A program made the translations under genes and the position numbers. DNA of 40,999 bases from Armatimonadota bacterium (GTDB lineage Bacteria > Sysuimicrobiota > Sysuimicrobiia > Sysuimicrobiales > Humicultoraceae): positions 1-40,999 of the forward strand of contig JAVKIA010000022.1 of the NCBI GenBank assembly GCA_031459715.1, given 5' to 3'. The notes beneath the pieces are model-generated. The model was given only the letters and a program-made list of their open reading frames with translations, had not been told where the DNA came from and made no database searches. How positions within the stretch are numbered: the stretch's first letter is position 1; each line of letters starts with the position of its first letter. Below, in pieces: positions 4,279 through 29,921 of this stretch.

Positions 4279-4962
4279 GTGGCCCGCATTCTGGCGGTCG
4301 GGGCCCACCCCGACGACGTGGAGATCGGCATGGGAGGGACCATTCTGGCCCTGCGGGCCCAGGGGCACGAGGTGGTGCTCTGCGACCTGACCAACGGTGA
4401 GCCCACGCCGCAGGGGACACCGGAGCGGCGCGCCGCCGAGGCAGCGGAGGCGGCCCGCCTCCTGGGGGTGAGCCGGCGGATCACCCTCCCTCTGCCCAAC
4501 CGCATGCTGGCGGACAGCGTAGAGAACCGCATGCGCCTGGCCGGGGTGATCCGCGAGGTGCGACCCGACTTCTTCTTCATCCCCTACTGGGTGGATGCCC
4601 ACCCCGACCACGTGGCCGCATGCACGCTGGCGGAGGCCGCCCGCTTCTACGCCAAGCTCACCAAGACTGAGATCCCCGGCGAACCCTTCTACCCGCCGCG
4701 GGTCTTTCACTTCTTCTCCACGCACTACGACCTGCACATCAAGCCCACATTCCTCTTCGACATCAGCGACCACTTCCAGGGCAAGCTGGCCGCCGTTGCC
4801 GCCTACACCTCCCAGTTCGCCGATGAGCGGGGCGAGATGCGCATCCTGCAGTACTTGAGAACCGTCAACACTTACTGGGGCTACCTGATCAACCGGCCGC
4901 AGGCGGAGGCCTTCGTCTGCCGGGAGGAGCTGGGGCTGCGCAGCCTGGACGGGGTGCTCTAG
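4279..4962 (+). CDS. bshB1: PIG-L family N-acetylglucosaminyl deacetylase, BshB1-like
   Basis: A 227-residue zinc-dependent deacetylase of the PIG-L/LmbE family. The zinc motif AHPDDVE starts at residue 9, and the second histidine motif, DAHPDH, is near residue 111. Length (about 235 in the family) and the C-terminal half (SQFADERG, then TYWGYLI) fit BshB1, which deacetylates GlcNAc-malate to GlcN-malate in bacillithiol synthesis. The start is GTG at 4279, preceded by a strong purine-rich AGGAGGGG about 10 bases upstream. The next gene is BshC-like, which supports the assignment. bshA is not in the window, and the neighbouring glycosyltransferase is GT2. A mycothiol- or inositol-type deacetylase is the alternative, but it is less likely next to a BshC homologue. 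Confidence 0.82.
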   Translation: MARILAVGAHPDDVEIGMGGTILALRAQGHEVVLCDLTNGEPTPQGTPERRAAEAAEAARLLGVSRRITLPLPNRMLADSVENRMRLAGVIREVRPDFFFIPYWVDAHPDHVAACTLAEAARFYAKLTKTEIPGEPFYPPRVFHFFSTHYDLHIKPTFLFDISDHFQGKLAAVAAYTSQFADERGEMRILQYLRTVNTYWGYLINRPQAEAFVCREELGLRSLDGVL

Positions 4963-4971
4963 GAAGCTGCC

Positions 4972-6522
4972 GTGATCGACGTTCCCCTGGAGATCCCCGA
5001 GCGCTCCGGCGAGGTGGTCCTGGTTCCCCCCGCTGCAGACCTGGTGGAGGTGGCGCGGGAGAACAGGGACCGCCTGGGGATGGAGGAGCTCCTCCTGGGG
5101 GGGACGCCGTTGCAGGAGTTGCGGCGGCAGGCGCGCCAAGAGGTCCTGGCGCTGGGCCGGGCGTACAGCGCAGCTCTGGGCGCCGGGCCCGTTCCCGAGG
5201 GGGAGCTGCTGCTGGCAACCGGCCACCAGCCCGTCTTTCCCCACCCCGGCATCTGGGTGAAGTACCTGCTGCTGGACCGTCTGGCCGCGCGCGGGCACAC
5301 CGGGCTGGCGGTGGTGGTGGACAGCGACGCCATGGAGCAGGTTGGGGTGGATGTTCCCTCGCGCCATGCTTCCTTCCTGGAGCGCCGGCGGGAGGTGTTG
5401 CGCACCGCCGCTCCGGAGGAGCCGTACGAGGGGCAGGCGGCGCCTGGCGGGGCGGAGTGGTCCGACTTTCTGCAACGGATCGACCGGCACGTGCGCTCCC
5501 TGGAGTCCGAGGCGGTGCGACGTCCCTGGGAGGCGTTCCGCGCCCTCCCGCCACCCGCCGCCCGGGACTATCCTGCCTTCGTCACGGCACTGCGCCGACG
5601 CTACGAGGGACCGCGCCGCTACCTGGACGTGCCACTGTCTGCCGCCTGCGAGAGCGTGGCCTTCCGCGCCTTCTTCCTGCACATCGCCGCAGGGGCCGCT
5701 CGTTTTCTGGAGGTCCACAACGCCCACCTGCAGGCCTACCGGGGACGGCAGCGTATCCGCACTGAGGCGCAGCCCTTCCCCGACCTGCAGCGGGAGGGGG
5801 AGCTTATCGAGCTGCCTTTCTGGACTCTGGCCGGCGGAAGGCGGCGCCGCCTCTTCCTGGACGGACGACGCCGCGCGCTGCGGGTAGCCGGCGGGGAGAG
5901 GGAAGGAGAATGGTCCTTCCCCAACCACCCCGCCGATCCGCGCTTTGCCCACCTGCGGCTGCGCCCGCGGGCTCTCACCCTGACGGCGTTCCTCCGCCTG
6001 CTGGTGGTGGATCTCTTCATCCACGGCATCAGCGGCGGCCGCTATGACCGGGTGACCGACGCGGTGATCGCCGACTTCTTTGGCATTGCTCCGCCGCACT
6101 ACGCTGTGGCCTCGGCCACCCTGCACCTGCCTCTGGGCCAGGCGGCCAACCCGGAGGCCACGCGGCGCTCCCTGCAGCGCCTGCTCCTGCAGGCCCGCCA
6201 CAATCCCGAGCGCCTGCTTACCGCGCCCACAGCCCGGCAAGAAGCGCTTGTCGCCCAGAAGTGGGAGCTGATCCGTCGGCTGGAGGCACCGGGGCTCACC
6301 CGGCGGGAGCGGCGCGCCGCCACGCAGAGCATCCGCGCCCTCAACGCGCAGCTCTGCGCCGCCCTGGCTGACCGCATCGCCGCGTGGGAGGAGGCCCTGC
6401 GAACCATGGAGCAGCACAGCGCTCCCTCCGACGCGGCGACCTACCGGGGATATCCCTACTTCCTCTACGAGCGAGAGCAGGTCGAGGCACTGGTCACCAG
6501 GATGCTGGAAGGGGGTGCCTGA
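4972..6522 (+). CDS. bshC: BshC-like putative cysteine ligase (bacillithiol-type thiol biosynthesis)
   Basis: A 516-residue protein, close to the roughly 540 of BshC (PF10079). The N-terminal half contains the family's nucleotide-fold segment, here LLATGHQPVFPHPGIWVKY (about residues 81-99) followed by VVVDSDAM. Typical Bacillus BshC has TGQQ at the first site, so this is a divergent member with TGHQ. The C-terminal half is long charged helix, as in the coiled coil of BshC. BshC is thought to attach cysteine to GlcN-malate. The start is GTG at 4972, nine bases after the deacetylase stop, so the two are co-transcribed. I am fairly sure of the family. Whether the product is bacillithiol itself or a relative is inferred. 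Confidence 0.7.
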   Translation: MIDVPLEIPERSGEVVLVPPAADLVEVARENRDRLGMEELLLGGTPLQELRRQARQEVLALGRAYSAALGAGPVPEGELLLATGHQPVFPHPGIWVKYLLLDRLAARGHTGLAVVVDSDAMEQVGVDVPSRHASFLERRREVLRTAAPEEPYEGQAAPGGAEWSDFLQRIDRHVRSLESEAVRRPWEAFRALPPPAARDYPAFVTALRRRYEGPRRYLDVPLSAACESVAFRAFFLHIAAGAARFLEVHNAHLQAYRGRQRIRTEAQPFPDLQREGELIELPFWTLAGGRRRRLFLDGRRRALRVAGGEREGEWSFPNHPADPRFAHLRLRPRALTLTAFLRLLVVDLFIHGISGGRYDRVTDAVIADFFGIAPPHYAVASATLHLPLGQAANPEATRRSLQRLLLQARHNPERLLTAPTARQEALVAQKWELIRRLEAPGLTRRERRAATQSIRALNAQLCAALADRIAAWEEALRTMEQHSAPSDAATYRGYPYFLYEREQVEALVTRMLEGGA

Positions 6523-7054: not shown

Positions 7055-7975
7055 ATGTCCAGGGTACCGATCGTCGTCTTGCTGCTGTGCGGGCTCGTCC
7101 TCCTGGCCGCCTGTCAGCCCACCGTGGGCCTCTCCCCGCGCATCGCACCGCTGCCGGAAGTCCCGCTGCAGGGTGCACCTATCGTAGCCGACGAGCAGGG
7201 GCGGTCCCTCGTCCCTGCGGCGGCGCAGGGCCGCGTGGTCTACGAGCGCGTCTGCGCCCAGTGCCACGGAGTGGAAGGGCGGGGGGACGGGCCGCTGGCC
7301 GCCTTCCTCAAGGCACCCCAGAAGAACCCCTTCACCGACACCATGCGGCTGCTAGGATTGGACGTGAAGGGCGAGGACCTGCCGTCGCGGCCGGCCAACT
7401 TCCACAACCAGGTGCAGATGCGTCTGAACAGCCCCACCAACATGTACGAAGTGGTCACCCTGGGCCGTCCCCACACCGCCATGCCGGCCTTCGGTCCCAA
7501 GCCGGCATATGGCGCCAACGACGGCATCCCGGGGCCGCGGTTCCTCGGGGAGACAGAGCGGTGGAACGTGGTGTTCTACGAGTGGACCTTCGCCACCTCG
7601 CCCGAGTCCATCGCCCGCGGCCGGCAGCTCTTCCAGGAACGCGAATTTCCGGTGAGCATTCCCGGCCTGGGCAGGGTGCGCGCCACCTGTGCCTCCTGCC
7701 ACGGCGCGGACGGAGACGGGCGGGGCGGCGCGTACAGCCAGGTCATGGCCCGCCGCACCTGGGGCTGGCGCCTGGGACGGGGCCCGGGGATTTTCCGCGA
7801 CCGGGACTTCATGGTGAAGCGCAAGCCCAGCGAGCTCTTCGCCTGGATCTACGACGGGATCGGGCTGATGCCGCCCTACAAGCAGTTCCTCACCGTGGAG
7901 GAGATCTGGTCGCTGGTGGACTACATCTGGACCTTTGTCTACACCTACACGCCGCCGCGGGGCCAGCAGCCGTGA
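7055..7975 (+). CDS. Diheme cytochrome c lipoprotein
   Basis: A 306-residue exported electron carrier. Residues 1-20 are a lipoprotein signal ending in the lipobox LAAC (Cys20), so the protein is anchored to the outer face of the membrane. Two class I haem c sites follow: CAQCH at 67-71 and CASCH at 211-215. Methionines in TAMPAFG (142) and GLMPPYK are likely axial ligands. The upstream GTG at 7034 is in frame, but ATG at 7055 places the signal peptide correctly. It is the first gene of a Rieske/cytochrome b operon and most likely accepts electrons from the Rieske cluster, in the position of cytochrome c1, although it is unlike c1 in sequence. Its partner oxidase is not in the window. Confidence 0.9.
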   Translation: MSRVPIVVLLLCGLVLLAACQPTVGLSPRIAPLPEVPLQGAPIVADEQGRSLVPAAAQGRVVYERVCAQCHGVEGRGDGPLAAFLKAPQKNPFTDTMRLLGLDVKGEDLPSRPANFHNQVQMRLNSPTNMYEVVTLGRPHTAMPAFGPKPAYGANDGIPGPRFLGETERWNVVFYEWTFATSPESIARGRQLFQEREFPVSIPGLGRVRATCASCHGADGDGRGGAYSQVMARRTWGWRLGRGPGIFRDRDFMVKRKPSELFAWIYDGIGLMPPYKQFLTVEEIWSLVDYIWTFVYTYTPPRGQQP

Positions 7976-8039
7976 ACTCCCGCAGGGCCGTTGGCGCCGG
8001 CCGCGGTAGACAGGTCCCCGCCGCACCCGGGTGGTGAGC

Positions 8040-8708
8040 ATGGGAACCCAGGAGCATCTGCAGCGTCGGAGGTTTCTCCGCCTTGTTACCGGGGTGCCGG
8101 TCCTTGGGGCCGCGCTGTCCTTCCTCTCGCCGCTGCTGCGGCTGCTCAAACCCAACGACCGCCCCTTCGAAGTGTTCTACAATCCCACGCGGCGGGACAT
8201 CCCCCTGGGCGAGGTGACCGTTGCAGCCAGCCTGCGCGAGGTGGCCCGCCCCTGGGACTTCAAGTACTTCGTCTTCACCCAAAAGTACCCGCAGTACACC
8301 CCCACCGGGCTGCGCCAGGCCAGCGTGCCCGCCGTGGTGCTGCGCCTGCCGCAAAAGATCCGCCTGCCCTGGGATTGGGCCGGCCAGATCGGCAAGCCTC
8401 AGCTGGTGGGGCGGGAGAGCGACATCATCATCTTTTCCCGCATCTGCCCCCACCTGGGATGCATCTTTAACTTCGTCCCCAACTGGCAGGAGGTCACCGC
8501 AGGCTACGGCGGCTACGTGCCGCCGCCGCCGCGGCGGCATGCGCTCATCGCCTGCCCCTGCCACCTTTCCATCTTCGACCCGGCAGACCCGCAGCAGCCG
8601 GGACGCGTCCTCTCCGGGCCAGCTCCCCGCCCTCCGCGGACCTTCCTCTACGAGATTCGCGGTGAGCAGATTGTGGCCACGGACGTGGAACCGGGAGGCA
8701 TCGCCTGA
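8040..8708 (+). CDS. Rieske [2Fe-2S] protein of a cytochrome bc-type complex
   Basis: A 222-residue Rieske protein. The N-terminus carries a twin-arginine motif, RRRFLR (9-14), before a hydrophobic segment that would remain as the membrane anchor. The cluster boxes are CPHLGC (Cys136, His138, Cys141) and CPCHLS (Cys172, Cys174, His175). The usual glycine after the last histidine is leucine, which may tune the potential. I chose ATG at 8040 over the GTGs at 8031 and 8034 because GGTGGTGAG just upstream serves as the ribosome site. The domain between anchor and box I is unusually long. The gene sits between the cytochrome c and the first cytochrome b, one base before the latter. Two tatA genes and tatC at 15.4-17.3 kb could export it. 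Confidence 0.92.
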   Translation: MGTQEHLQRRRFLRLVTGVPVLGAALSFLSPLLRLLKPNDRPFEVFYNPTRRDIPLGEVTVAASLREVARPWDFKYFVFTQKYPQYTPTGLRQASVPAVVLRLPQKIRLPWDWAGQIGKPQLVGRESDIIIFSRICPHLGCIFNFVPNWQEVTAGYGGYVPPPPRRHALIACPCHLSIFDPADPQQPGRVLSGPAPRPPRTFLYEIRGEQIVATDVEPGGIA

Positions 8709-8709
8709 G

Positions 8710-9891
8710 ATGGCCATTGCCGACTGGATCCGGGAGCGGAAGGCCCACCTGGATCTCTTCGACGAGACCAAGACCCAGTACCAGTACAACCCGCTCTACC
8801 TGCTGGGGCCGATGCTCTACTACTTCTACCTGCTCACGGTGGTCAGCGGGGTCATCCTCATGCTGTGGTACGAGCCCACCACCAGCGGCGCCTACGACTC
8901 CATCGTTCGCATCTCCCGGGAGATCGGGCGGGTCACCGTGGGGGGCGTGGTGGTTCCCCTGGGGTCGCTGGTGCGGGGCATTCACAAATACGCGGCCGAT
9001 GCGGTCTTCCTCTGCTTCATTCTGCGCATCTACCGCATGTACTTCGCCGGGGAGTACAAACGCCCCGGGGAGCTATCCTGGATGCTGTTCTTCCTGGGGC
9101 TGGTCCTGACCATGATCTCCGGCGTCACCGGGTACCTGCTCATCTGGAACCAGCGCTCCTTCTGGGCGGCCAAGACCATCCTCACGGTGCCGGTGTACCT
9201 GGACGAGCTCACCGCCTGGATTCCCCGGGTGGGGGAGCAGCTCAAGTTCGGCTCGATGATCGCCTACATCTTCCTGGGCGGGTCGGCCATCGGGCAGGCC
9301 ACCATTACCCGCTTCTACGCCATCCACTTCGGCATCTCCATCGTCCTGCTGCTGCTCATCGAGGTGTACGTCTACCGCACGCGCCGCGCCAGGCTGAAGA
9401 TGTCCTGGTTCCCCATGCTACTGCTGTTCCTCATGGTGCTCTTCGTGGCCTGGGCCCTGCCGGCGGAGATGGGGCGACGGGCTGACCCCAACCGCACGCC
9501 CCTGCCTATCCTCTCTGACTGGTACTTCCTGGCCCTCTACCAGTACGTGAAGTACACGCCGCCGCTGTGGGCGGGGCTGGGGCCGGGGCTGCTGATCGGC
9601 GTGGGCATGCTGGTGCCCTTCCTCGACCGGTCGAAGTCTCGCCACCCCCTGGACCGTCCCCTCTTCCTCGTGCTGGGGCTGCTGGCTCTGGCCTACTTCC
9701 TGGGCTTCACCGCACTGATCATGTGGAACATCGCGCAGATCGAGCGGGAGCCGCCCATCGTCCTGCTGGCCACAGTGCTGATCATGGGCGGGGGGTTCCT
9801 CTGGCACCTGCGCCGTCGCTGGCAGGAGGCCCGCGCCGTGGCTGCTCCTCCTCCCGCGGCGGTGCGGACGCGGCAGGAGGAGAGAGCCTGA
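8710..9891 (+). CDS. Cytochrome b, full-length (b6 plus subunit IV type), lacking n-side haem ligands
   Basis: A 393-residue membrane protein with about eight helices, a fusion-length cytochrome b. Helix B has the p-side haem ligand His92, but the residue 14 further on, normally the n-side ligand, is Arg106. Helix D has His206, but the partner position is Tyr220. The first haem site is therefore kept and the second is lost. In the ef loop the PEWY motif of the quinol-oxidation site reads SDWY (269-272), and the following YQYVKY matches the family. I chose ATG at 8710; the open frame extends much further upstream but overlaps the Rieske gene and has no cytochrome similarity. The ATG lies just after the Rieske stop. 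It should form the quinol-oxidising membrane subunit with the Rieske protein and pair with the cytochrome b at 10361-11536. Confidence 0.9.
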   Translation: MAIADWIRERKAHLDLFDETKTQYQYNPLYLLGPMLYYFYLLTVVSGVILMLWYEPTTSGAYDSIVRISREIGRVTVGGVVVPLGSLVRGIHKYAADAVFLCFILRIYRMYFAGEYKRPGELSWMLFFLGLVLTMISGVTGYLLIWNQRSFWAAKTILTVPVYLDELTAWIPRVGEQLKFGSMIAYIFLGGSAIGQATITRFYAIHFGISIVLLLLIEVYVYRTRRARLKMSWFPMLLLFLMVLFVAWALPAEMGRRADPNRTPLPILSDWYFLALYQYVKYTPPLWAGLGPGLLIGVGMLVPFLDRSKSRHPLDRPLFLVLGLLALAYFLGFTALIMWNIAQIEREPPIVLLATVLIMGGGFLWHLRRRWQEARAVAAPPPAAVRTRQEERA

Positions 9892-10145
9892 TGCGTACGC
9901 TCCTCTCCTGGGCAGCGTTCGCCGCAGCCGTCTACGCTTTCTCCGGGCTTTGGGCGGCCTTCCGCGGTGCGCTCCAGGGCCGACCGACGGTGTCCCCGGC
10001 ACCGTTCCTGGGCCTGGTCGCCCTTTTCCTGATCAGCATGGCCTACCTGGCCTTCGTCGTCTACGCGGCCGACCGCGGCGCTGGACGGGTGCGGCGGCGC
10101 ATCGCCCTATTCGAGCGGATCCTTGACCGGGGGCAGCATGGATAG
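9891..10145 (+). CDS. Small two-helix membrane protein of the cytochrome operon
   Basis: An 84-residue protein whose ATG overlaps the cytochrome b stop by one base (TGATG). There are two hydrophobic helices (about residues 5-25 and 40-60) and then an arginine-rich, amphipathic C-terminus (RVRRRIALFERIL) likely to lie on the cytoplasmic side. I do not recognise a family. Layout and position resemble small structural subunits or CcmD-like membrane peptides. Tight overlap with both neighbours implies stoichiometric expression with the complex. Confidence 0.75.
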   Translation: MRTLLSWAAFAAAVYAFSGLWAAFRGALQGRPTVSPAPFLGLVALFLISMAYLAFVVYAADRGAGRVRRRIALFERILDRGQHG

Positions 10146-10347
10146 CCGGCGGACCGCCCTGACAGCCGTTCTGTTCCTGGCCGCGGTCAGCCTGCTGCTG
10201 GCAGGGCTCATCATCATCGCCGAGCTGCGGGACGACTATGCACTGGGCGGCGTCGCCCTGGGAGCCATCCTGGTGGCCTACGGGCTGATCGTCCTCTTCC
10301 TGCGGCGGCTGGACCTGATCGGGCCGCGCCGAGCGGAAGGGAAGTAG
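10138..10347 (+). CDS. Small two-helix membrane protein of the cytochrome operon
   Basis: A 69-residue protein starting at ATG 10138, overlapping the preceding gene by 8 bases, with GGGGGCAG just upstream as the ribosome site. Two hydrophobic segments are separated by a short polar turn (AELRDDYALGG), followed by a basic end (FLRRLDLIGPRR). No family is recognised. It sits between the two cytochrome b genes, so a structural or assembly role in that complex is the simplest reading. Confidence 0.72.
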   Translation: MDSRRTALTAVLFLAAVSLLLAGLIIIAELRDDYALGGVALGAILVAYGLIVLFLRRLDLIGPRRAEGK

Positions 10348-10360
10348 GCAGGAGGAGTCC

Positions 10361-11536
10361 ATGTACCGACGGGCCCTGACCTGGCTGCTGCGGCAGACGG
10401 TGAAGCTGGATGTCTATATCAACCGGATCTACCCCTCCGACTGGAACCCCCTCTACTACACCGGCGGGTTAGCGCACTTTTTCCTCTTCTTGCTGGTCCT
10501 CTCCGGGATTCTGCTCTTCTTCTACTACGTGGCCAGCCTGGACGGGGCCTACGCCAGCATCCGCTACCTCAGCGAGGAGGTGCCCTACGGGTTTCTCCTG
10601 CGTGGCCTGCACCGCTACGCCGCCGACGGGTTCATCGTCGCCGTGCTGCTGCACCTGTTCCGCAACTGGTTCACCGACCGCTACCTCTTCGCCCGCGACG
10701 GCCCCTGGATCTCCGGGATGTTCCTGCTCATCCTGGGGGGCTTCGTCGGCGTGAACGGCTACCAGCTGGTCTGGGACCAGCGGGCCCAGGCCGTCACCGA
10801 GATCTTCGTGGCCATCCTCGGGGCCGTCCCCCTGGCCGGGGCGACACTGGTGCGCCTCTTCCTGGGCAGCGAGGGCATCAGCGCCGCCATGCTGCCGCGG
10901 ATCCTCTTCCTGCACGTGGGGGTGGCCTCGTTCCTCTACGTCCTCCTGTGGTGGCACTACGTCCGCCTGCGCCACCCTAAGATCTGGCCGCCGGCCACCT
11001 GGGTGCTGCTGCTGCTGGGACTGCTCGTCTTGCTCTCCGCGCTGCCCGGGACGCGGCCCACCGCGGGGGTGCCGGCCCAGCCCGGCGTGCGGGTCACCGC
11101 CTACCCCCTGGACGTCTTCTTCCTGCTGCCCTTCTGGTTGGCCAGCTACCTGCCCCCGGGCGTGGTTGGAGCCGGGCTGGCCGGGCTTTTACTGCTGGGC
11201 TACCTCATTCCCTACCTGAAGCGGGAGGACGAATCCCGGATGGGCCCGCGGCACGCCGGCGTGGCTCAGGTCATCGACGGTAACTGTACCGGGTGCGAGC
11301 TCTGCTACTACGACTGCCCCTACGACGCCATCGTCATGGTCCCCTCACCCCATCCCGGCCTGACCAAGGCGGCGGCCAGCCGAAAGCTGCTGGCGGTGGT
11401 CATAGACTCGCGCTGCGTGGAGTGCGGCATCTGCGTGGGCGCGTGTCCCTTCCAGGCGCTGGAGCTTCCCCGGTTCCTGGAGGCGGACCTGATGCGGCGT
11501 ATCGCTGAGCTGGTGCGGGCCCGGGCGCCGGCTTAG
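10361..11536 (+). CDS. Cytochrome b6-like protein fused to a C-terminal two-[4Fe-4S] ferredoxin domain
   Basis: A 391-residue fusion. Residues 1-285 are a cytochrome b with about six helices. All four haem ligands are present with the canonical spacing of 14: His84/His98 on helix B and His184/His198 on helix D. No PEWY-type motif is visible after helix D, and the last helices of a full cytochrome b are absent. Residues 300-365 form a ferredoxin with two complete CxxCxxCxxxCP motifs: Cys308/311/314/318 and Cys351/354/357/361. By the usual cytochrome b topology this domain would face the cytoplasm. ATG at 10361 follows the ribosome site AGGAGGAG. The fusion offers a direct route from the n-side haem to cytoplasmic iron-sulfur clusters, and the next gene encodes an FlpD-like protein that could dock there. 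Confidence 0.9.
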   Translation: MYRRALTWLLRQTVKLDVYINRIYPSDWNPLYYTGGLAHFFLFLLVLSGILLFFYYVASLDGAYASIRYLSEEVPYGFLLRGLHRYAADGFIVAVLLHLFRNWFTDRYLFARDGPWISGMFLLILGGFVGVNGYQLVWDQRAQAVTEIFVAILGAVPLAGATLVRLFLGSEGISAAMLPRILFLHVGVASFLYVLLWWHYVRLRHPKIWPPATWVLLLLGLLVLLSALPGTRPTAGVPAQPGVRVTAYPLDVFFLLPFWLASYLPPGVVGAGLAGLLLLGYLIPYLKREDESRMGPRHAGVAQVIDGNCTGCELCYYDCPYDAIVMVPSPHPGLTKAAASRKLLAVVIDSRCVECGICVGACPFQALELPRFLEADLMRRIAELVRARAPA

Positions 11537-11642
11537 GGGATGTCCGGGGAGCGTTGCTCAGCACCGCCTGACCACCTGTGGCCCCGGCAGTGGGCGAGAG
11601 CAGATTTTCGGGGTGGGCGACAAGGAGGACGCGGGAGGACGG

Positions 11643-12080
11643 ATGAAGGTTATTGGTTTTGTATGTGACTGGGCGGTGTCCACAGAAGGGCTGGTGGACG
11701 GGCGCGGGGAGCTGAAGGCGTATCCTGGCGTGCACATCGTGCGCATCCCCTGTTCGGGGTTTATGCGCCCGGACTGGCTGGAACAGTCTCTGCGCGCCGG
11801 GGCCGATGGCGCCTTCGTCACCGGCTGCCCCTACGGCGACTGCCTCAACCGTGAGGGCAACTACCTGATGCGGGACCGGATGGAGCAGCTGGCCCGGCGG
11901 CTGCAGCGGCGGCGCGTCGATCCGGGCCGCGTGGCCATGTTCGCCCACGGACTGCACGACCAGCAGGCTTTCCTCGCCGAGGTGGGGGCCTTCCTCCGGC
12001 GCCTGGAGAGCCTGCCCCAGCCGGCCGCCCGGCCGGTGCGCCCCGCTGTGGGAGCCGCCGCAGGGGAGGCGGCCGAATGA
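11643..12080 (+). CDS. MvhD/FlpD-like (methyl-viologen-reducing hydrogenase delta subunit family) iron-sulfur protein
   Basis: A 145-residue cytoplasmic protein of the MvhD/FlpD family (PF02662). Diagnostic segments are IGFVCDW near the start, VRIPCSG (Cys37), GADGAFVTGCPYGDC (Cys62, Cys67) and GNYLMRDR. The family start usually reads CCNWC; here only Cys8 of that trio remains. Four cysteines (8, 37, 62, 67) are left, enough for one [2Fe-2S] cluster. In methanogens and FlxABCD-Hdr systems this subunit passes electrons between a flavoprotein or hydrogenase and HdrA. No Hdr or hydrogenase gene is nearby, and the neighbour is the cytochrome b-ferredoxin fusion. I chose ATG at 11643, preceded by GGGAGGACGG. 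The last ~25 residues are a low-complexity Pro/Ala tail. Confidence 0.82.
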   Translation: MKVIGFVCDWAVSTEGLVDGRGELKAYPGVHIVRIPCSGFMRPDWLEQSLRAGADGAFVTGCPYGDCLNREGNYLMRDRMEQLARRLQRRRVDPGRVAMFAHGLHDQQAFLAEVGAFLRRLESLPQPAARPVRPAVGAAAGEAAE

Positions 12081-12190
12081 CTCGGCGCCGCCTGCCGCTG
12101 CACACCCTGCTGCTCTACCTGCTGTTCTACCTGGTGTTTTTCCTGCTGCTGCTCTTCGTCGCGTCGTTCGGTCTGGTGGCGGAGGCGTGA
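12077..12190 (+). CDS. 37-residue single-helix membrane peptide
   Basis: A short frame starting at ATG 12077, overlapping the FlpD-like stop by four bases (ATGA), and ending with TGA at 12188-12190. It encodes a basic start (MTRRRLPLH), a long leucine/phenylalanine-rich helix and a short acidic end (LVAEA). Size and layout resemble PetL/PetM/CcoQ-type single-helix subunits of respiratory complexes. The overlap and the clean basic-helix-acidic pattern argue for a real gene. No homology can be claimed. Confidence 0.6.
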   Translation: MTRRRLPLHTLLLYLLFYLVFFLLLLFVASFGLVAEA

Positions 12191-12207
12191 GGGCAGGAGG
12201 AGCCGGC

Positions 12208-13179
12208 GTGGACCTGGCGCAGATCTACGCGCCCATCCAGCACGACCTGGACGCCCTGGACGGGCTGCTGCGGGCCGAGCTGGCCAGCGAGGATCCCCTG
12301 GTGGGGGAGCTGGTGACCTACGTGCTCTCTACGCGGGGCAAGCTGGTGCGCCCGGCACTGACCTGCCTGGCCGCCGAGGCCATCGGCGGCGGGGAGGAGG
12401 AGCGCCTCTACCTGGCGGGCACGGTCGAGCTCATCCACATCGCCTCCCTGATCCACGACGATATCATCGACCAGGCCGACGTGCGCCGCGGCAGCCCCAC
12501 GGTCAATGTGCAGTGGGGCAACCAGCTGGCCGTCCTGCTGGGGGACCTGCTGTTCGCCCGGGCCTTCGACTTGATCAGCCGGGTGCGCCATCCCCAGGTG
12601 GCACCGGCGGTGGCCCACGCTGCGGTGCGCATGAGCCAAGCGGAAATCAAGCAGCTGGAGTATGCCGCGGAGCCTCACCAGCACGAGGGGGTCTACCTGG
12701 AGATCATCGAGGGGAAGACGGCAGCGCTCTTCTCCGCCGCCTGCCGCGGCGGTGCCCTCCTGGCCGGGGGGACCGCGGAACAGGCGGCGGCGCTGGCGGA
12801 GTTTGGCTTGAGTTGGGGGATGTCATTTCAGATCACCGACGACACCCTGGATCTGACCAGCCGGCCGGAGGCGCTGGGCAAGCCCATCGGCTCGGACATC
12901 CAGGGGGGGAAGGTGACATTGCCGGTGATCCACGCCCTGCGATGCGCCTCCCCAGGGGACCGGGCCGAGCTGCTGCGGCTGCTGCAGACGCCGTCCGCGG
13001 ACGGACAGGTGGAAGAGGTCCGCCCCCTGCTGGATCGCTATGGGGCCATCGAGTACGCCGTGGACGTGGCCCGTCGCTATGCGGCGCGCGCCGCTGCGGC
13101 CCTGGAGGCGCTACCGCCCTCTCCCGCCCGGCAGAGCCTGCGCGCGCTCACCGAGTTCGTCCTGGTCCGCCCGCGCTGA
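12208..13179 (+). CDS. Long-chain trans-polyprenyl diphosphate synthase (menaquinone side chain)
   Basis: A 323-residue all-helical isoprenyl synthase. Both aspartate-rich Mg-diphosphate motifs are present: LIHDDIIDQAD (about residue 82) and QITDDTLD (about residue 210). GKLVRP and the KPIGSDIQGGKVTLP segment are also present. Small residues rather than bulky aromatics precede the first motif, which fits long-chain (heptaprenyl/octaprenyl or longer) products. I chose GTG at 12208 because AGGAGG lies 8 bases upstream; the GTG at 12187 lacks one. It would make the menaquinone tail, fitting the quinol-dependent complex encoded upstream, and may share its transcript. Confidence 0.88.
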   Translation: MDLAQIYAPIQHDLDALDGLLRAELASEDPLVGELVTYVLSTRGKLVRPALTCLAAEAIGGGEEERLYLAGTVELIHIASLIHDDIIDQADVRRGSPTVNVQWGNQLAVLLGDLLFARAFDLISRVRHPQVAPAVAHAAVRMSQAEIKQLEYAAEPHQHEGVYLEIIEGKTAALFSAACRGGALLAGGTAEQAAALAEFGLSWGMSFQITDDTLDLTSRPEALGKPIGSDIQGGKVTLPVIHALRCASPGDRAELLRLLQTPSADGQVEEVRPLLDRYGAIEYAVDVARRYAARAAAALEALPPSPARQSLRALTEFVLVRPR

Positions 13180-13296
13180 CCGCCATCCTCACCGGCGTTC
13201 TAGTCAGCACGGCGGCAGGGATCGGGTTTCCTCCCGGCAAACCCTGTTGGTGTTTTTGTGGCGCGTTGGGCCACGAGTGTGGAAGAGGCAGCGACG

Positions 13297-14901
13297 ATGC
13301 AGGTGACGTGCATCATTCCCGCCTACAACGAGGCCGAAGGCATCGCCGCCGTGGTGGCCGCGGCGCGCGGCTGCGACCAGGTCACCGAGATCATCGTCGT
13401 CTCCGATGGGTCCACGGATGAGACGGCCCGGCGGGCGGCCGCCGCTGGCGCTGACCGGGTGCTGATCCTGCCACGCAACCGGGGGAAGGGCGGCGCCGTG
13501 GCGGCCGCGGTGCCCCACGCCCGGGGCGAGATCCTCCTGCTGCTGGACGCGGACCTGCGCGGGTTGCGCCCCTGGCACCTCAGCCGGTTGCTGGGCCCCA
13601 TATGCGCCGGCCGGGCGGAGATGGCAGTAGGGGTGTTCACAGACGACCCGCTGCACGGGATGCTGCCCTGCCTCTCGGGCCAGCGGGCGGTGCAGCGGCG
13701 GCTGCTGCGCCATCCCGAGGTGCTGGCGGGTACGGGGTTCGGCTTCGAGCTGGCGCTGGACCGCCTGGCCCGGCGAGAGGGGGTGCGCGTGGTGGAGGTG
13801 CCTCTGGAGGGGGTGGCCCACCGGCGGAAGCGGCAGAAGTACGGGCCAGTGCGGGGGCTGCGCCAGGAAGTGCGGGCCTCGTCCGACCTCCTGCGGCAGG
13901 TCCGGCGGATGGTCATCCCGCGCCGGGCGGCCGCCCGCCCGCGCCCGTGGTATCCCATGAAGGCGAGGCGCAAACCGATGGTCCTGGCAGGCATCGTCCT
14001 GGTTCTGCTTATCCTCGTGCTGGCGCCGGTGTTCCTGGCGCCAGCGTCCCACGCGGCGCACGTGCCCATCGTCTCACCGCTGCACCCGGGAGACCGTCTG
14101 CTCGTGGTGGTGGCGCATCCCGACGACGAGGTCGTGGGCGCCGGGGGGCTGGTGGCGACCGCCCGCCGTCTGGGGGTGCCGGTGAGCGTCCTGGTCCTGA
14201 CCAACGGTGACAGCAACCGGCTGAGCGCCACCCTGATCGGGCGCCACCTGCGCCCGGGCCCCGCCGACTTCCGGCGCACGGGGGCGGTGCGCCAGGAAGA
14301 GTCGCAGGAGGGGCTGCGCCGCCTGGGCGTCCCGGCCGAGGCGGTCTTCTTCCTGGGCTTTCCCGACCGGGTGCTCCCCCAGGTCCTGGCCAGTGAAGTG
14401 CCGGTGACCTCGCCGTTCACCCGCATGGACCACGCGGAGTATCCACGCGTGGTCGCGCCCGGGGGGCCCTACACCGCGGAGACCCTGCGCGTGCTGCTGC
14501 AGCGGGTGGTGGAGCAGGTGCGGCCCACCGTGGTCATCACCCACGCGCCGTTTGACCGGCACGGCGACCACCAGGCTGCCTACGCGTTGGTCAGCCCGTT
14601 GCTGGGCACGGTCCGCCTCTACACCTTCCTGGTGCACGCGCCCGGTTTTCCCCGCCCGCTGCGCTTCGCCCCAAGGGAGCCCCTGCAGCCTCCTGCCGGC
14701 CTGGCCCAACTGCGCGGATGGTCGTGGGTGGAGTTCCCCCTGTCGGCGGAGGCGCAGCGCGGCAAGCAGGAAGCGCTGAATGCGCACCGCAGCCAGCTGG
14801 AGACGCCGTACCTGCGGCTGCTCCTGGGCGCATTCGTCCGCACCAACGAGCTGTTCGCCGTTCCCCGCCAGGTCAATCCACCCGGCGAAGTGTCCAGGTG
14901 A
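13297..14901 (+). CDS. Fusion of a GT2 glycosyltransferase, a transmembrane helix and a PIG-L deacetylase
   Basis: A 534-residue two-enzyme fusion. Residues 1-210 are a GT-A glycosyltransferase with CIIPAYNEAEG, VVSDGSTDET and the metal motif DAD (84-86). One hydrophobic helix spans about 228-249. Residues 265-534 are a PIG-L deacetylase with the zinc motif AHPDDE (273-278) and a second histidine site, FDRHGDHQA. If the single helix crosses the membrane, the two catalytic domains lie on opposite sides. If it is a re-entrant anchor, both are cytoplasmic. A GT that adds GlcNAc paired with a deacetylase that unmasks the amine recalls GlcNAc-inositol and bacillithiol chemistry. The separate GT2 and PIG-L genes at 3501-4962 mirror it. 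I chose ATG at 13297. The 3' end overlaps the convergent methyltransferase by 29 bases. Confidence 0.85.
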   Translation: MQVTCIIPAYNEAEGIAAVVAAARGCDQVTEIIVVSDGSTDETARRAAAAGADRVLILPRNRGKGGAVAAAVPHARGEILLLLDADLRGLRPWHLSRLLGPICAGRAEMAVGVFTDDPLHGMLPCLSGQRAVQRRLLRHPEVLAGTGFGFELALDRLARREGVRVVEVPLEGVAHRRKRQKYGPVRGLRQEVRASSDLLRQVRRMVIPRRAAARPRPWYPMKARRKPMVLAGIVLVLLILVLAPVFLAPASHAAHVPIVSPLHPGDRLLVVVAHPDDEVVGAGGLVATARRLGVPVSVLVLTNGDSNRLSATLIGRHLRPGPADFRRTGAVRQEESQEGLRRLGVPAEAVFFLGFPDRVLPQVLASEVPVTSPFTRMDHAEYPRVVAPGGPYTAETLRVLLQRVVEQVRPTVVITHAPFDRHGDHQAAYALVSPLLGTVRLYTFLVHAPGFPRPLRFAPREPLQPPAGLAQLRGWSWVEFPLSAEAQRGKQEALNAHRSQLETPYLRLLLGAFVRTNELFAVPRQVNPPGEVSR

Positions 14902-28193: not shown

Positions 28194-28551
28194 GCCTCCC
28201 AGCCTCCTCCGAGCGCGGACAGCAGCAGCCGCGGCGGAGGGCAAGGCCGCCGAGCAGGTGGTCGTCCTCGACCTGCGCACGCTGACCCTGGTCACCGACT
28301 TCTTCGTCATCTGCACGGCCACCAGTCGCGTGCACATGAAGGCGGTGCGCGAAGGGATCGAGGAAGCCATGGAACGGGCCAGCTTCCGGCTGCAGGCGCG
28401 AGAGGGCGATGAGGAGGCGCAGTGGGTGCTGCTGGACTACGGCGATGTGGTGGTGCACCTGCTCAGCCCCCAGACGCGGGCCTTCTACAAGCTGGAGCGG
28501 ATGTGGGCCAGGGCCCCCCAGGTGGCCGTTTCCGGCGGGAGGACGGGGTAG
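28186..28551 (+). CDS. rsfS: Ribosome silencing factor RsfS
   Basis: A 121-residue protein of the RsfS/Iojap family: [25 protein letters not shown] and [16 protein letters not shown], then [11 protein letters not shown]. It binds L14 and blocks subunit joining when nutrients are limited. The usual neighbour of nadD, with which it overlaps. Confidence 0.95.
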
Positions 28552-28579
28552 GCGGCGGCGCTGCTGTGCGGCCTACCCC
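28545..28579 (+). terminator. Terminator-like hairpin after rsfS
   Basis: GGGGTAGGC (28545-28553) pairs perfectly with GCCTACCCC (28571-28579) around a 17-base loop, followed by CTTTCC. The stem includes the rsfS stop codon. The short pyrimidine run makes it a moderate intrinsic terminator. It separates the obgE-nadD-rsfS transcript from the promoter at 28596. Confidence 0.6.
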
Positions 28580-28595
28580 CTTTCCAGCGGTCGGT

Positions 28596-28625
28596 TTGAC
28601 AGCGACCGGGAGCCTTCGCTATGCT
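28596..28625 (+). promoter_or_regulatory. Promoter with consensus -35, probably giving a leaderless mRNA
   Basis: A perfect TTGACA (28596-28601) and TATGCT (28620-28625) are 18 bases apart. Initiation seven or so bases after the -10 would fall at about 28631-28634, at or just before the ATG at 28635. No ribosome site could then fit. Confidence 0.65.
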
Positions 28626-28634
28626 GGCCGCGCC

Positions 28635-29060
28635 ATGGACGGCGTGCTGCCCGCAGCCAACCGCTGCTTTATCTGCGGTCCGGACAACCCCGTGGGACTG
28701 CGCCTGGGGTTTTCCCCGCAGGGCCCCGGCGTGGCCGCCGAGTTCGTCCTGGGACAGGAGCACATCGGCTGGGAGGGGGTGATCCACGGGGGACTCATCG
28801 CGGCGGTCCTGGACGACGCCATGGCCAACATCTGGGCCTGGCGCGGCACGCCCGCGGTGACCACCAGTATCTCCGTGCGCTTCCGCCGTCCGGTCCGCCC
28901 GGGAGAGCGGCTGCGGGTCTTCGCCGAGCCTGTGGGGGCGCGGCGATCGGCCATGCAGCGGGCCCGGGGGACGGTGATGCGGTCCGACGGCATCCCGGTC
29001 GCCGAGGGAAAGGGCGTGGTCCTGATAGGGCCCCGCGCCGCCGGCCTGGCAAAGGACTGA
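28635..29060 (+). CDS. PaaI-family hot-dog thioesterase
   Basis: A 141-residue hot-dog-fold protein. An N-terminal [12 protein letters not shown] (a CxxCxxxN pattern seen in many PaaI-like proteins) precedes the hot-dog signature [20 protein letters not shown], where the HGG loop and the aspartate form the acyl-CoA site. Substrate unknown. ATG at 28635 lies about 10 bases after a predicted -10. The stop overlaps smpB by one base, so smpB may be translated from the same message. Confidence 0.88.
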
Positions 29061-29542
29061 TGGCCGGAACGGATCGCCAGCGCGATATCGCCACAAACCG
29101 CCGGGCCCGCTACGAGTACCACATCGAGGAGACGGTGGAGGGCGGCCTGGTCCTCACCGGTACCGAGGTGAAGTCACTGCGCGCCGGCCGGGCCAGCCTG
29201 GCAGAGGCGTTCGCCCGGGTGGAACGCGGCGAGGTCTGGATCCACGGGATGCACATCCCCCCCTATGAGGCGGGCAGCGTCTTCAACCACGACCCGCTGC
29301 GCTCCCGCAAGGTCCTGCTGCACCGCAGCGAAATCAACCGGCTGCTGGGGAAGGCGCAGCAGAAGGGCTACACCCTGGTCCCCCTGCGCCTGTACTTCAA
29401 GGGGGGCCTGGCCAAAGTGGAACTGGCCGTGGCGCGGGGCAAGAAGGCCTACGACAAGCGGGAGGCCATCGCCCGGCGGGAGGCGCAGCGGGAGATGGCG
29501 CAGGCGCTCAAGCGCGGTCTCCGGGGGCCTGGGCGGCGGTGA
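29060..29542 (+). CDS. smpB: tmRNA-binding protein SmpB
   Basis: A 160-residue SmpB: the start [20 protein letters not shown], then [35 protein letters not shown] and the basic tail [17 protein letters not shown]. That tail reads the empty mRNA channel during trans-translation. ATG at 29060 overlaps the thioesterase stop. Its partner ssrA starts 31 bases downstream. Confidence 0.97.
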
Positions 29543-29573: not shown

Positions 29574-29921
29574 GGGGGCGATCGGTCTCGACTGGGTGGG
29601 AAGAAGCAGGGTGGCGAGCCGAGGTGCCAGGACCTCGTTAATCAACTGGCAGACGCGATAAGCGTCAACACCAACTACGCACTCGCCGCTTAAGAAGCGG
29701 TGACGTCCTCCCGGGAGGGCCGGTGGCCCGGGCAGGGCGCGACAAGCCGGCTACCCGTCGCGGTCTCGGCCCGGGGCCGCGCCGGGGAAGGCAATCGGGC
29801 TGGCCGCCGGAGGATCCGGTCCGCGGGAGCACCGGCGGCGAGACGAAAACGCGGGCTACGCTCGTAGAGGCTCTGCCCTCACTCACTCAGGACGCGGGTT
29901 CGATTCCCGCCGCCTCCACCA
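29574..29921 (+). ncRNA. ssrA: Transfer-messenger RNA (ssrA)
   Basis: A 348-base tmRNA. The 5' end GGGGGCG pairs with CGCCTCC just before the encoded 3' ACCA, forming the acceptor stem (one G-U). GGTCTCGACTGGG near the 5' end and the T-arm GGGTTCGATTCCC near the 3' end are typical. The resume codon is GCA at 29649 and the frame ends with TAA at 29691-29693. The encoded tag is ADAISVNTNYALAA, carrying the usual ALAA degron. It rescues stalled ribosomes with SmpB. Confidence 0.97.

Follow-up and report, generated by a model that had tools for sequence, protein, structure and literature searches.

Why would a single operon encode two unlike cytochromes b beside a Rieske protein, and where would the electrons of such a pair go? 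The question is raised by a locus in the genome of a bacterium of the phylum CSP1-3, now Sysuimicrobiota (2.76 Mb in total, in 75 contigs), of which contig C22, 40,999 nucleotides long, is the stretch analyzed here (the window). At 7055-12190 on the + strand it carries eight close-packed protein genes, several of which overlap their neighbours by a few bases. The two cytochromes b encoded there, b1 and b2, are complementarily degenerate: b1 lacks the ligands of haem bH, whereas b2 lacks the motifs of the quinol oxidation (Qo) site, and this pattern is conserved across phyla. It is also the key point that a preliminary description of the locus had missed. Judging from the sequences, we lean toward reading the operon as that of a Rieske/cytochrome b (complex III-like) menaquinol oxidase with a b1-b2 heterodimer at its core, wired to an FlpD-like protein and a cytoplasmic acceptor.

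Gene content of the operon

The genes of the operon, and the one that follows it, are these (aa, amino acids):

7055..7975, + strand: dihaem cytochrome c lipoprotein, 306 aa, with two CxxCH motifs and a lipobox, LLAAC, near the N-terminus
8031..8708, + strand: Rieske [2Fe-2S] protein, 225 aa, with an N-terminal membrane anchor and the motif CPHLGC...CPCH
8710..9891, + strand: cytochrome b1, 393 aa, with 8 transmembrane stretches, Qo motifs and bL ligands, no bH ligands and a short loop between helices D and E (D-E loop)
9891..10145, + strand: small membrane protein 1, 84 aa, with two hydrophobic stretches and no family match
10138..10347, + strand: small membrane protein 2, 69 aa, with two hydrophobic stretches and no family match
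10361..11536, + strand: cytochrome b2, 391 aa, with four haem histidines, no Qo motifs, a short D-E loop and a C-terminal 2x[4Fe-4S] domain (8 Cys)
11643..12080, + strand: FlpD/MvhD-like protein, 145 aa, with C8, C39, C62 and C67 aligned with the MvhD cysteines
12077..12190, + strand: single-span membrane peptide, 37 aa, with the C-terminal end [FY]G[LI][IV]AE[AT]
12187..13179, + strand: polyprenyl synthase, overlapping the peptide gene and syntenic in Sysuimicrobiota only

All the genes that the preliminary description had placed here are present at the positions and on the strand it gave, and their assignments are supported by both Pfam and NCBIfam. Its count of nine does not fit its own list, in which we find eight protein genes; the polyprenyl synthase gene, which may have a role in making the quinone side chain, could be the ninth co-conserved member. 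The cytochrome c lipoprotein matches PF13442 (69.4 bits) and also PF00034, has a single hydrophobic stretch, at its N-terminus, by hydropathy, and keeps C67/C70/H71 and C212/C215/H216 invariant. The Rieske protein scores 18.4 bits in Pfam, just under the cut-off of 20.3; its CPHLGC...CPCH cluster motif is nonetheless invariant. Both cytochromes b match PF00033, b1 with 86.9 bits (and PF00032 with 30.1) and b2 with 104.3 bits (and Fer4 with 40.2), and FlpD matches PF02662 with 91.0 bits against a cut-off of 22.3. Scans with Pfam and NCBIfam detected no flavin adenine dinucleotide (FAD)/nicotinamide adenine dinucleotide (phosphate) (NAD(P)) oxidoreductase domain in any protein of the operon.

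Complementary losses in the two cytochromes b

Both b1 and b2 have sequence matches among the solved b6 and b cytochromes of the PDB (down to E 1e-25 to 1e-42). In b1 the bL ligands H92 and H206, which are the first histidine of helix B and that of helix D and form the pair nearer the positive (p-) side, are invariant in 78/78 sequences, and besides this pair no invariant histidine column is found among the 78. The bH position of helix B, 106, holds arginine in 71 sequences and lysine in 7; that of helix D (Y220 in the window) holds tyrosine, phenylalanine, leucine and similar residues, with histidine in a single sequence in which the helix B partner is arginine. When b1 is aligned with a solved b6, R106 falls on b6 H100 and Y220 on b6 H202. 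Two residues ahead of the helix D position, E218 is likewise invariant (78/78), and this co-conservation fits a buried arginine-glutamate pair (R/K106-E218) that may take the place of haem bH. The Qo signatures of b1 are kept: SDWYFL and the cd1 motif WNQR-FWA (WNQRxFWA) are invariant or nearly so. Hydropathy and a modest AlphaFold2 model agree on 8 membrane helices, and Foldseek matches the model to full-length bc1 cytochrome b.

Could the missing bH ligands be an alignment artefact or a drift shared by the whole lineage? The host genome argues otherwise, for it has a second Rieske/cytochrome b locus (G000:C21, L060 9035-11854), followed by a multihaem cytochrome c, whose cytochrome b keeps four haem histidines and PEWY; the loss is thus specific. 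Both explanations were also rejected on account of G249, the closest outside match, whose cytochrome b is canonical with four histidines and PEWY, and of the alignment to a solved structure.

Cytochrome b2 shows the opposite pattern. Its four haem histidines (H84, H98, H185 and H199) are present in 70/70 true b2 sequences, as are the eight cluster cysteines, one column of which stands at 69/70, while FWA is absent and xD[WV][FL] stands in place of a PEWY-type motif. Left out of these counts are five apparent b2 sequences without bH ligands (L063, L071, L103, L130 and L137), which are b1 sequences on contigs that end before b2. A selenocysteine or a split gene in b2 was considered and rejected: the matches with one TGA in several members of the order owe it, where the gene was located, to the terminal stop within the aligned span. 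Hydropathy and a modest AlphaFold2 model give b2 about six membrane helices, a topology that would put its ferredoxin domain on the cytoplasmic (n-) side.

Conservation and co-inheritance

In the host's order b1 is present in 39/43 genomes, mostly as strong full-length matches. The order cytochrome c, Rieske, b1, small, small, b2-ferredoxin, FlpD, small peptide, polyprenyl synthase is kept in the 20 loci of this order that were examined in detail, with departures only at contig ends and for a few small genes whose divergence puts them beyond detection. A wider scan with the b1 alignment against one genome per species gave 80 loci, which belong to Sysuimicrobiota under various labels, to many Melainabacteria/Vampirovibrionia and to one metagenome-assembled genome labelled Symbiobacterium thermophilum (L083); the Vampirovibrionia carriers, which are non-photosynthetic, include Vampirovibrio chlorellavorus (L093) and Candidatus Obscuribacter phosphatis (L124). 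In a survey of 386 genomes, G157 was one further carrier from outside the order, and it has the complete gene set.

Co-occurrence of the gene set, proposed earlier as a check, is thus seen within the order and again in Vampirovibrionia, L083 and G157, and because the set is syntenic in 20 members of the order and in further bacterial groups, its assembly in one operon is not due to chance. We also looked for the two cytochromes b in unrelated operons, which would have spoken against their partnership, and found instead that b2 follows b1 in all 67 loci with enough downstream sequence (67/67). FlpD comes after b2 in 68/68 loci, and the Rieske gene lies ahead of b1 in 75/75. The trees of b1 and b2 have clades that mirror each other in branching, and their pairwise distances correlate with r = 0.95, as is expected of co-inherited partners; contact is not proven thereby.

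FlpD and its partners

In a comparison with the HdrABC-MvhADG structure 5odc, the FlpD of the operon matches the MvhD chain at 4.9e-16, and the four conserved cysteines align. It differs in being encoded with a cytochrome b rather than with Hdr or a hydrogenase. HdrA as its general partner was considered and rejected for most carriers, in which HdrA is absent or unlinked; the host genome has an HdrA-FlpD locus elsewhere, outside the operon. Because the operon copy is the only FlpD in most carriers, we conclude that it belongs to the twin-b complex and not to an Hdr enzyme.

Several distant bacteria encode single-chain cytochrome b-2x[4Fe-4S]-FlpD fusions (L055 8875-10515, L056 3830-5443, L057 ~8670-10190 and L058 7531-9558). 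They share with the operon a b2-like haem-b domain, two [4Fe-4S] clusters and an FlpD domain, and the tree groups them with b2; they differ in being one polypeptide. Those in L055 and L058 adjoin Sco/SenC-like and haem-copper oxidase/nitric oxide (NO)-reductase-like genes, and neither b1 nor Rieske was seen beside the fusions in the stretches examined. They are possibly an undescribed electron wire from the cytoplasm to the p-side.

A proposed split-duty heterodimer

The gene set and its co-occurrence, the cluster ligands and the way in which b1 has lost its bH ligands and b2 its Qo motifs are read directly from the genomes, and from them we infer heterodimerization, an electron step from bL to bL, menaquinone as the quinone, the direction of flow and the kind of acceptor. 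The heterodimer is the most parsimonious arrangement because the electron on bL of b1 has no n-side exit, while b2 has an exit but no Qo. In this proposal b1 would contribute the Qo site and haem bL only, and b2 would hold haems bL and bH and no Qo, so that three b haems, not four, are predicted per b1-b2 pair; FlpD would dock on the cytoplasmic two-cluster ferredoxin domain fused to b2. Quinol, presumably menaquinol, would be oxidized at the Qo of b1. The first electron would pass to the Rieske protein and on through the dihaem cytochrome c to a haem-copper oxidase. The other would have to cross from bL to bL, since there is no exit within b1, and would continue through bH of b2 and the 2x[4Fe-4S] domain to FlpD and an acceptor such as ferredoxin or NAD(P). 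Such a complex would be a quinol-bifurcating wire, not a symmetric Q-cycle.

The division of labour has an engineered counterpart. In fused Rhodobacter cytochromes b, one half is Qo-dead (G158W) and the other bH-dead (H212N), and bL-bL-bH transfer occurs at catalytically relevant rates (PMC4330944). These cross-inactivated bc1 fusions (Swierczek 2010, Czapla 2013), made to demonstrate transfer from bL to bL, likewise join a Qo-dead and a bH-dead half only through bL-bL (PMC4330944). They differ in being laboratory constructs; the division in the twin-b complex would be natural, with both bH ligands gone and an Fe-S exit instead of Qi, the quinone-reduction site.

Alternatively, b1 and b2 could be two separate homodimeric membrane proteins with only the operon in common, with b1 forming a Rieske complex that delivers to cytochrome c only and b2-FlpD an independent ferredoxin-linked cytochrome b. 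The fusions found without a nearby b1 in other bacteria indicate that b2 can stand alone. A b1 homodimer, however, would leave the second electron without an exit, and the losses in the two proteins are exactly complementary and strictly co-inherited; we consider this arrangement improbable.

The heterodimeric quinol complex with an n-side wire that the preliminary description had suggested is therefore strongly supported by the complementary loss of bH and Qo, by adjacency and by the mirrored trees, while the bifurcation to ferredoxin or NAD(P) that it added is still an inference.

Respiratory context and direction of electron flow

Where would the two branches end? In Vampirovibrionia the first genes of the operon are CcoN- and CcoO-like, as of an oxidase of the cbb3 type (inspected in L093 and L124), and a PF00115 (CcoN-like) match lies directly after FlpD in several Sysuimicrobiota genomes: G012, G013, G015, G021, G024, G027, G030, G033 and L046, the last of which was inspected. 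In the host's order, COX1 is present in 38/39 genomes with the complex, and the 4/4 genomes without the complex are also without COX1 (Fisher p = 4e-5). Because of this linkage and co-occurrence, the twin-b complex appears, from its gene neighbourhoods, to act as the complex III of a chain that respires oxygen, and oxygen is very likely the end point of the high-potential branch.

Two observations touch on this context. A CcoN-like protein beside the twin-b operon of L046 (3185-4576, - strand) is, by eye, apparently without the RxxH haem ligand and the CuB histidines, and is possibly an inactive oxidase subunit kept for structure or electron transfer. The four genomes of genus g2 of the host's family (G002, G008, G009 and G010) lack both the twin-b complex and COX1 and keep extra FlpD copies; they are possibly anaerobes that lost or never had an oxygen chain.

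The complex might also run mainly in reverse (confurcation), with low-potential electrons from FlpD/b2 and high-potential electrons from cytochrome c together reducing menaquinone at Qo. Qo chemistry is reversible in principle. The linkage is to oxygen reductases, which draw electrons from cytochrome c, and a high-potential donor pathway was not seen near the operon; even with autotrophs among the Sysuimicrobiota (PMC11604079), we find this reversal very improbable.

The low-potential branch is harder to place. In both b1 and b2 the D-E loop has about half the length of that of the canonical cytochrome b in the host genome, and because both are short of this lining loop the usual Qi pocket looks absent. 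As no normal quinone-reduction site is visible and an Fe-S arm is fused to b2, we favour this branch as an output to ferredoxin or NAD(P), although we are less sure of it than of the oxygen end.

The same heterodimer could instead use the Fe-S/FlpD arm as an input, with a cytoplasmic donor (ferredoxin) feeding bH of b2 and a remodelled Qi site in b2 reducing menaquinone with two electrons, of which Qo and ferredoxin supply one each. The net effect would be oxidation of ferredoxin by cytochrome c with extra proton translocation. This is a hard-wired form of an idea discussed for b6f in cyclic electron flow. NuoF (Complex1_51K) was not detected in any of the five Vampirovibrionia genomes with the complex that were examined (5/5; L093, L124, L119, L114 and L087), which points to a complex I fed by ferredoxin, and Melainabacteria have been described with a partial complex I, possibly ferredoxin-fed (PMC6349859); a ferredoxin-linked chain is thus possible in these carriers. 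For the fusions near Sco-like and oxidase/NO-reductase-like genes, with no Rieske detected, flow from the cytoplasm to the p-side is the simplest reading, and in b2 the residue N29, which lies close to the n-side, does not vary. Set against this, the loop that is shortened in b2 is one that contributes to Qi in bc1/b6f, Qi residues are not recognizable in b2, and in a comparison with b6 the cysteine that holds haem cn in b6f is replaced by Y33. We regard an input arm as unlikely, yet as the main alternative.

The full form of the output reading, a natural and obligate cytochrome b heterodimer in which bL-bL is the sole low-potential route and oxygen-driven quinol oxidation reduces ferredoxin or NAD(P) by way of FlpD and a cytochrome b with a fused ferredoxin domain, is offered tentatively, as a possibility that comes close to being evenly poised. 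Several points weigh against the heterodimeric, quinol-bifurcating complex as a whole. The electron step from the p- to the n-side works against the membrane potential, and the Vampirovibrionia carriers, which are reported as heterotrophs (PMC4040986, PMC4451040), have no obvious need for low-potential electrons. A remodelled Qi site may exist in b2. FlpD is separated from its usual partner, for the operon has no HdrA, most carrier genomes have it unlinked or not at all, and in most carriers there is no second FlpD copy. The COX1 correlation rests on one genus and is effectively one evolutionary event, and the single-chain AlphaFold2 models of b1 and b2, built from shallow alignments, are weak, with predicted local distance difference test scores (pLDDT) of 63 and 61.

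Relation to known complexes

The twin-b complex shares with bc1 and b6f a Rieske protein, a p-side cytochrome c, the cytochrome b fold and, in b1, the Qo motif and bL ligands. It differs in having two unlike cytochromes b, in the missing bH ligands of b1 and Qo motifs of b2, and in an n-side Fe-S domain with FlpD and no canonical D-E loop. If bc1/b6f membership is taken to mean four histidines per cytochrome b, a Qo motif in every cytochrome b and the Rieske cluster motif CxHxxC...CxxH, then the Rieske motif is present, four histidines are found in b2 (70/70) and only the bL pair in b1 (78/78), and the Qo motif is SDWYFL in b1 and degenerate in b2.

An n-side redox arm, as suggested in the preliminary description, has a precedent. 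The nearest is found in anammox bacteria, in the Rieske/b complexes Kuste4569-4574 and Kustd1480-1485 that carry an NAD(P) oxidoreductase arm, for which quinol bifurcation to NAD(P), making NAD(P)H, has been proposed (PMC12954380). They too have an n-side Fe-S arm proposed to take the low-potential electron, and their Qn site is doubtful (PMC12954380). Unlike the twin-b complex they have a single cytochrome b6 together with subunit IV, in a homodimeric model that holds haem cn and the usual b haems (PMC12954380). A FAD/NAD(P) subunit stands in place of the ferredoxin-fused b2 and FlpD, and their cytochromes c are multihaem. The top NCBIfam model for both b1 and b2 is that of the ExtP/ExtQ b-type cytochromes of a selenite/tellurite operon, but the scores of 112 and 125 bits are far under the cut-off of 290 and the operon is another one.

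The accessible literature gave no description of a twin cytochrome b or of a split haem set, though subscription-only papers could hold one, and what it gave for natural heterodimeric or bH-less cytochromes b was in every instance either engineered or a use of these terms in another sense. The phylum description of Sysuimicrobiota does not mention Rieske or cytochrome b (PMC11604079), for Obscuribacter and Vampirovibrio earlier genome papers go no further than 'complexes I to IV' (PMC4040986, PMC4451040), and cytochrome b6f-like subunits have been annotated in Melainabacteria (PMC6349859). The novel element is the complementary division of labour between b1 and b2; the kind of complex is already known.

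Other features of the window

Outside the operon, a 377-aa open reading frame (ORF) at 28409-29542, directly upstream of the transfer-messenger RNA gene (29574-29921), matches SmpB only at residues 227-368 and probably has a wrong upstream start rather than being a fusion. In the ORF at 13258-14901 a glycosyltransferase domain of family 2 is joined with a PIG-L deacetylase domain, and a second PIG-L gene (4279-4962) adjoins a 516-aa protein (4972-6522) without a Pfam match.

Implications

Physiological electron crossing between the bL haems of complex III has so far been argued from engineered asymmetric mutants. In several groups of bacteria that asymmetry seems to have become fixed by evolution, and a natural enzyme of this kind could settle whether bL-bL can carry the full flux. 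The twin-b operon also presents a second type of Rieske/b complex in which a redox arm lies on the n-side and, if the proposed route is true, a third outcome of bifurcation at Qo besides the Q-cycle and the NAD(P) proposal of the anammox type. Our results further suggest that in aerobic relatives of Cyanobacteria that do not photosynthesize, the complex III annotated as b6f-like (PMC6349859) is another kind of machine; this matters for reconstructing the rise of respiration around Cyanobacteria.

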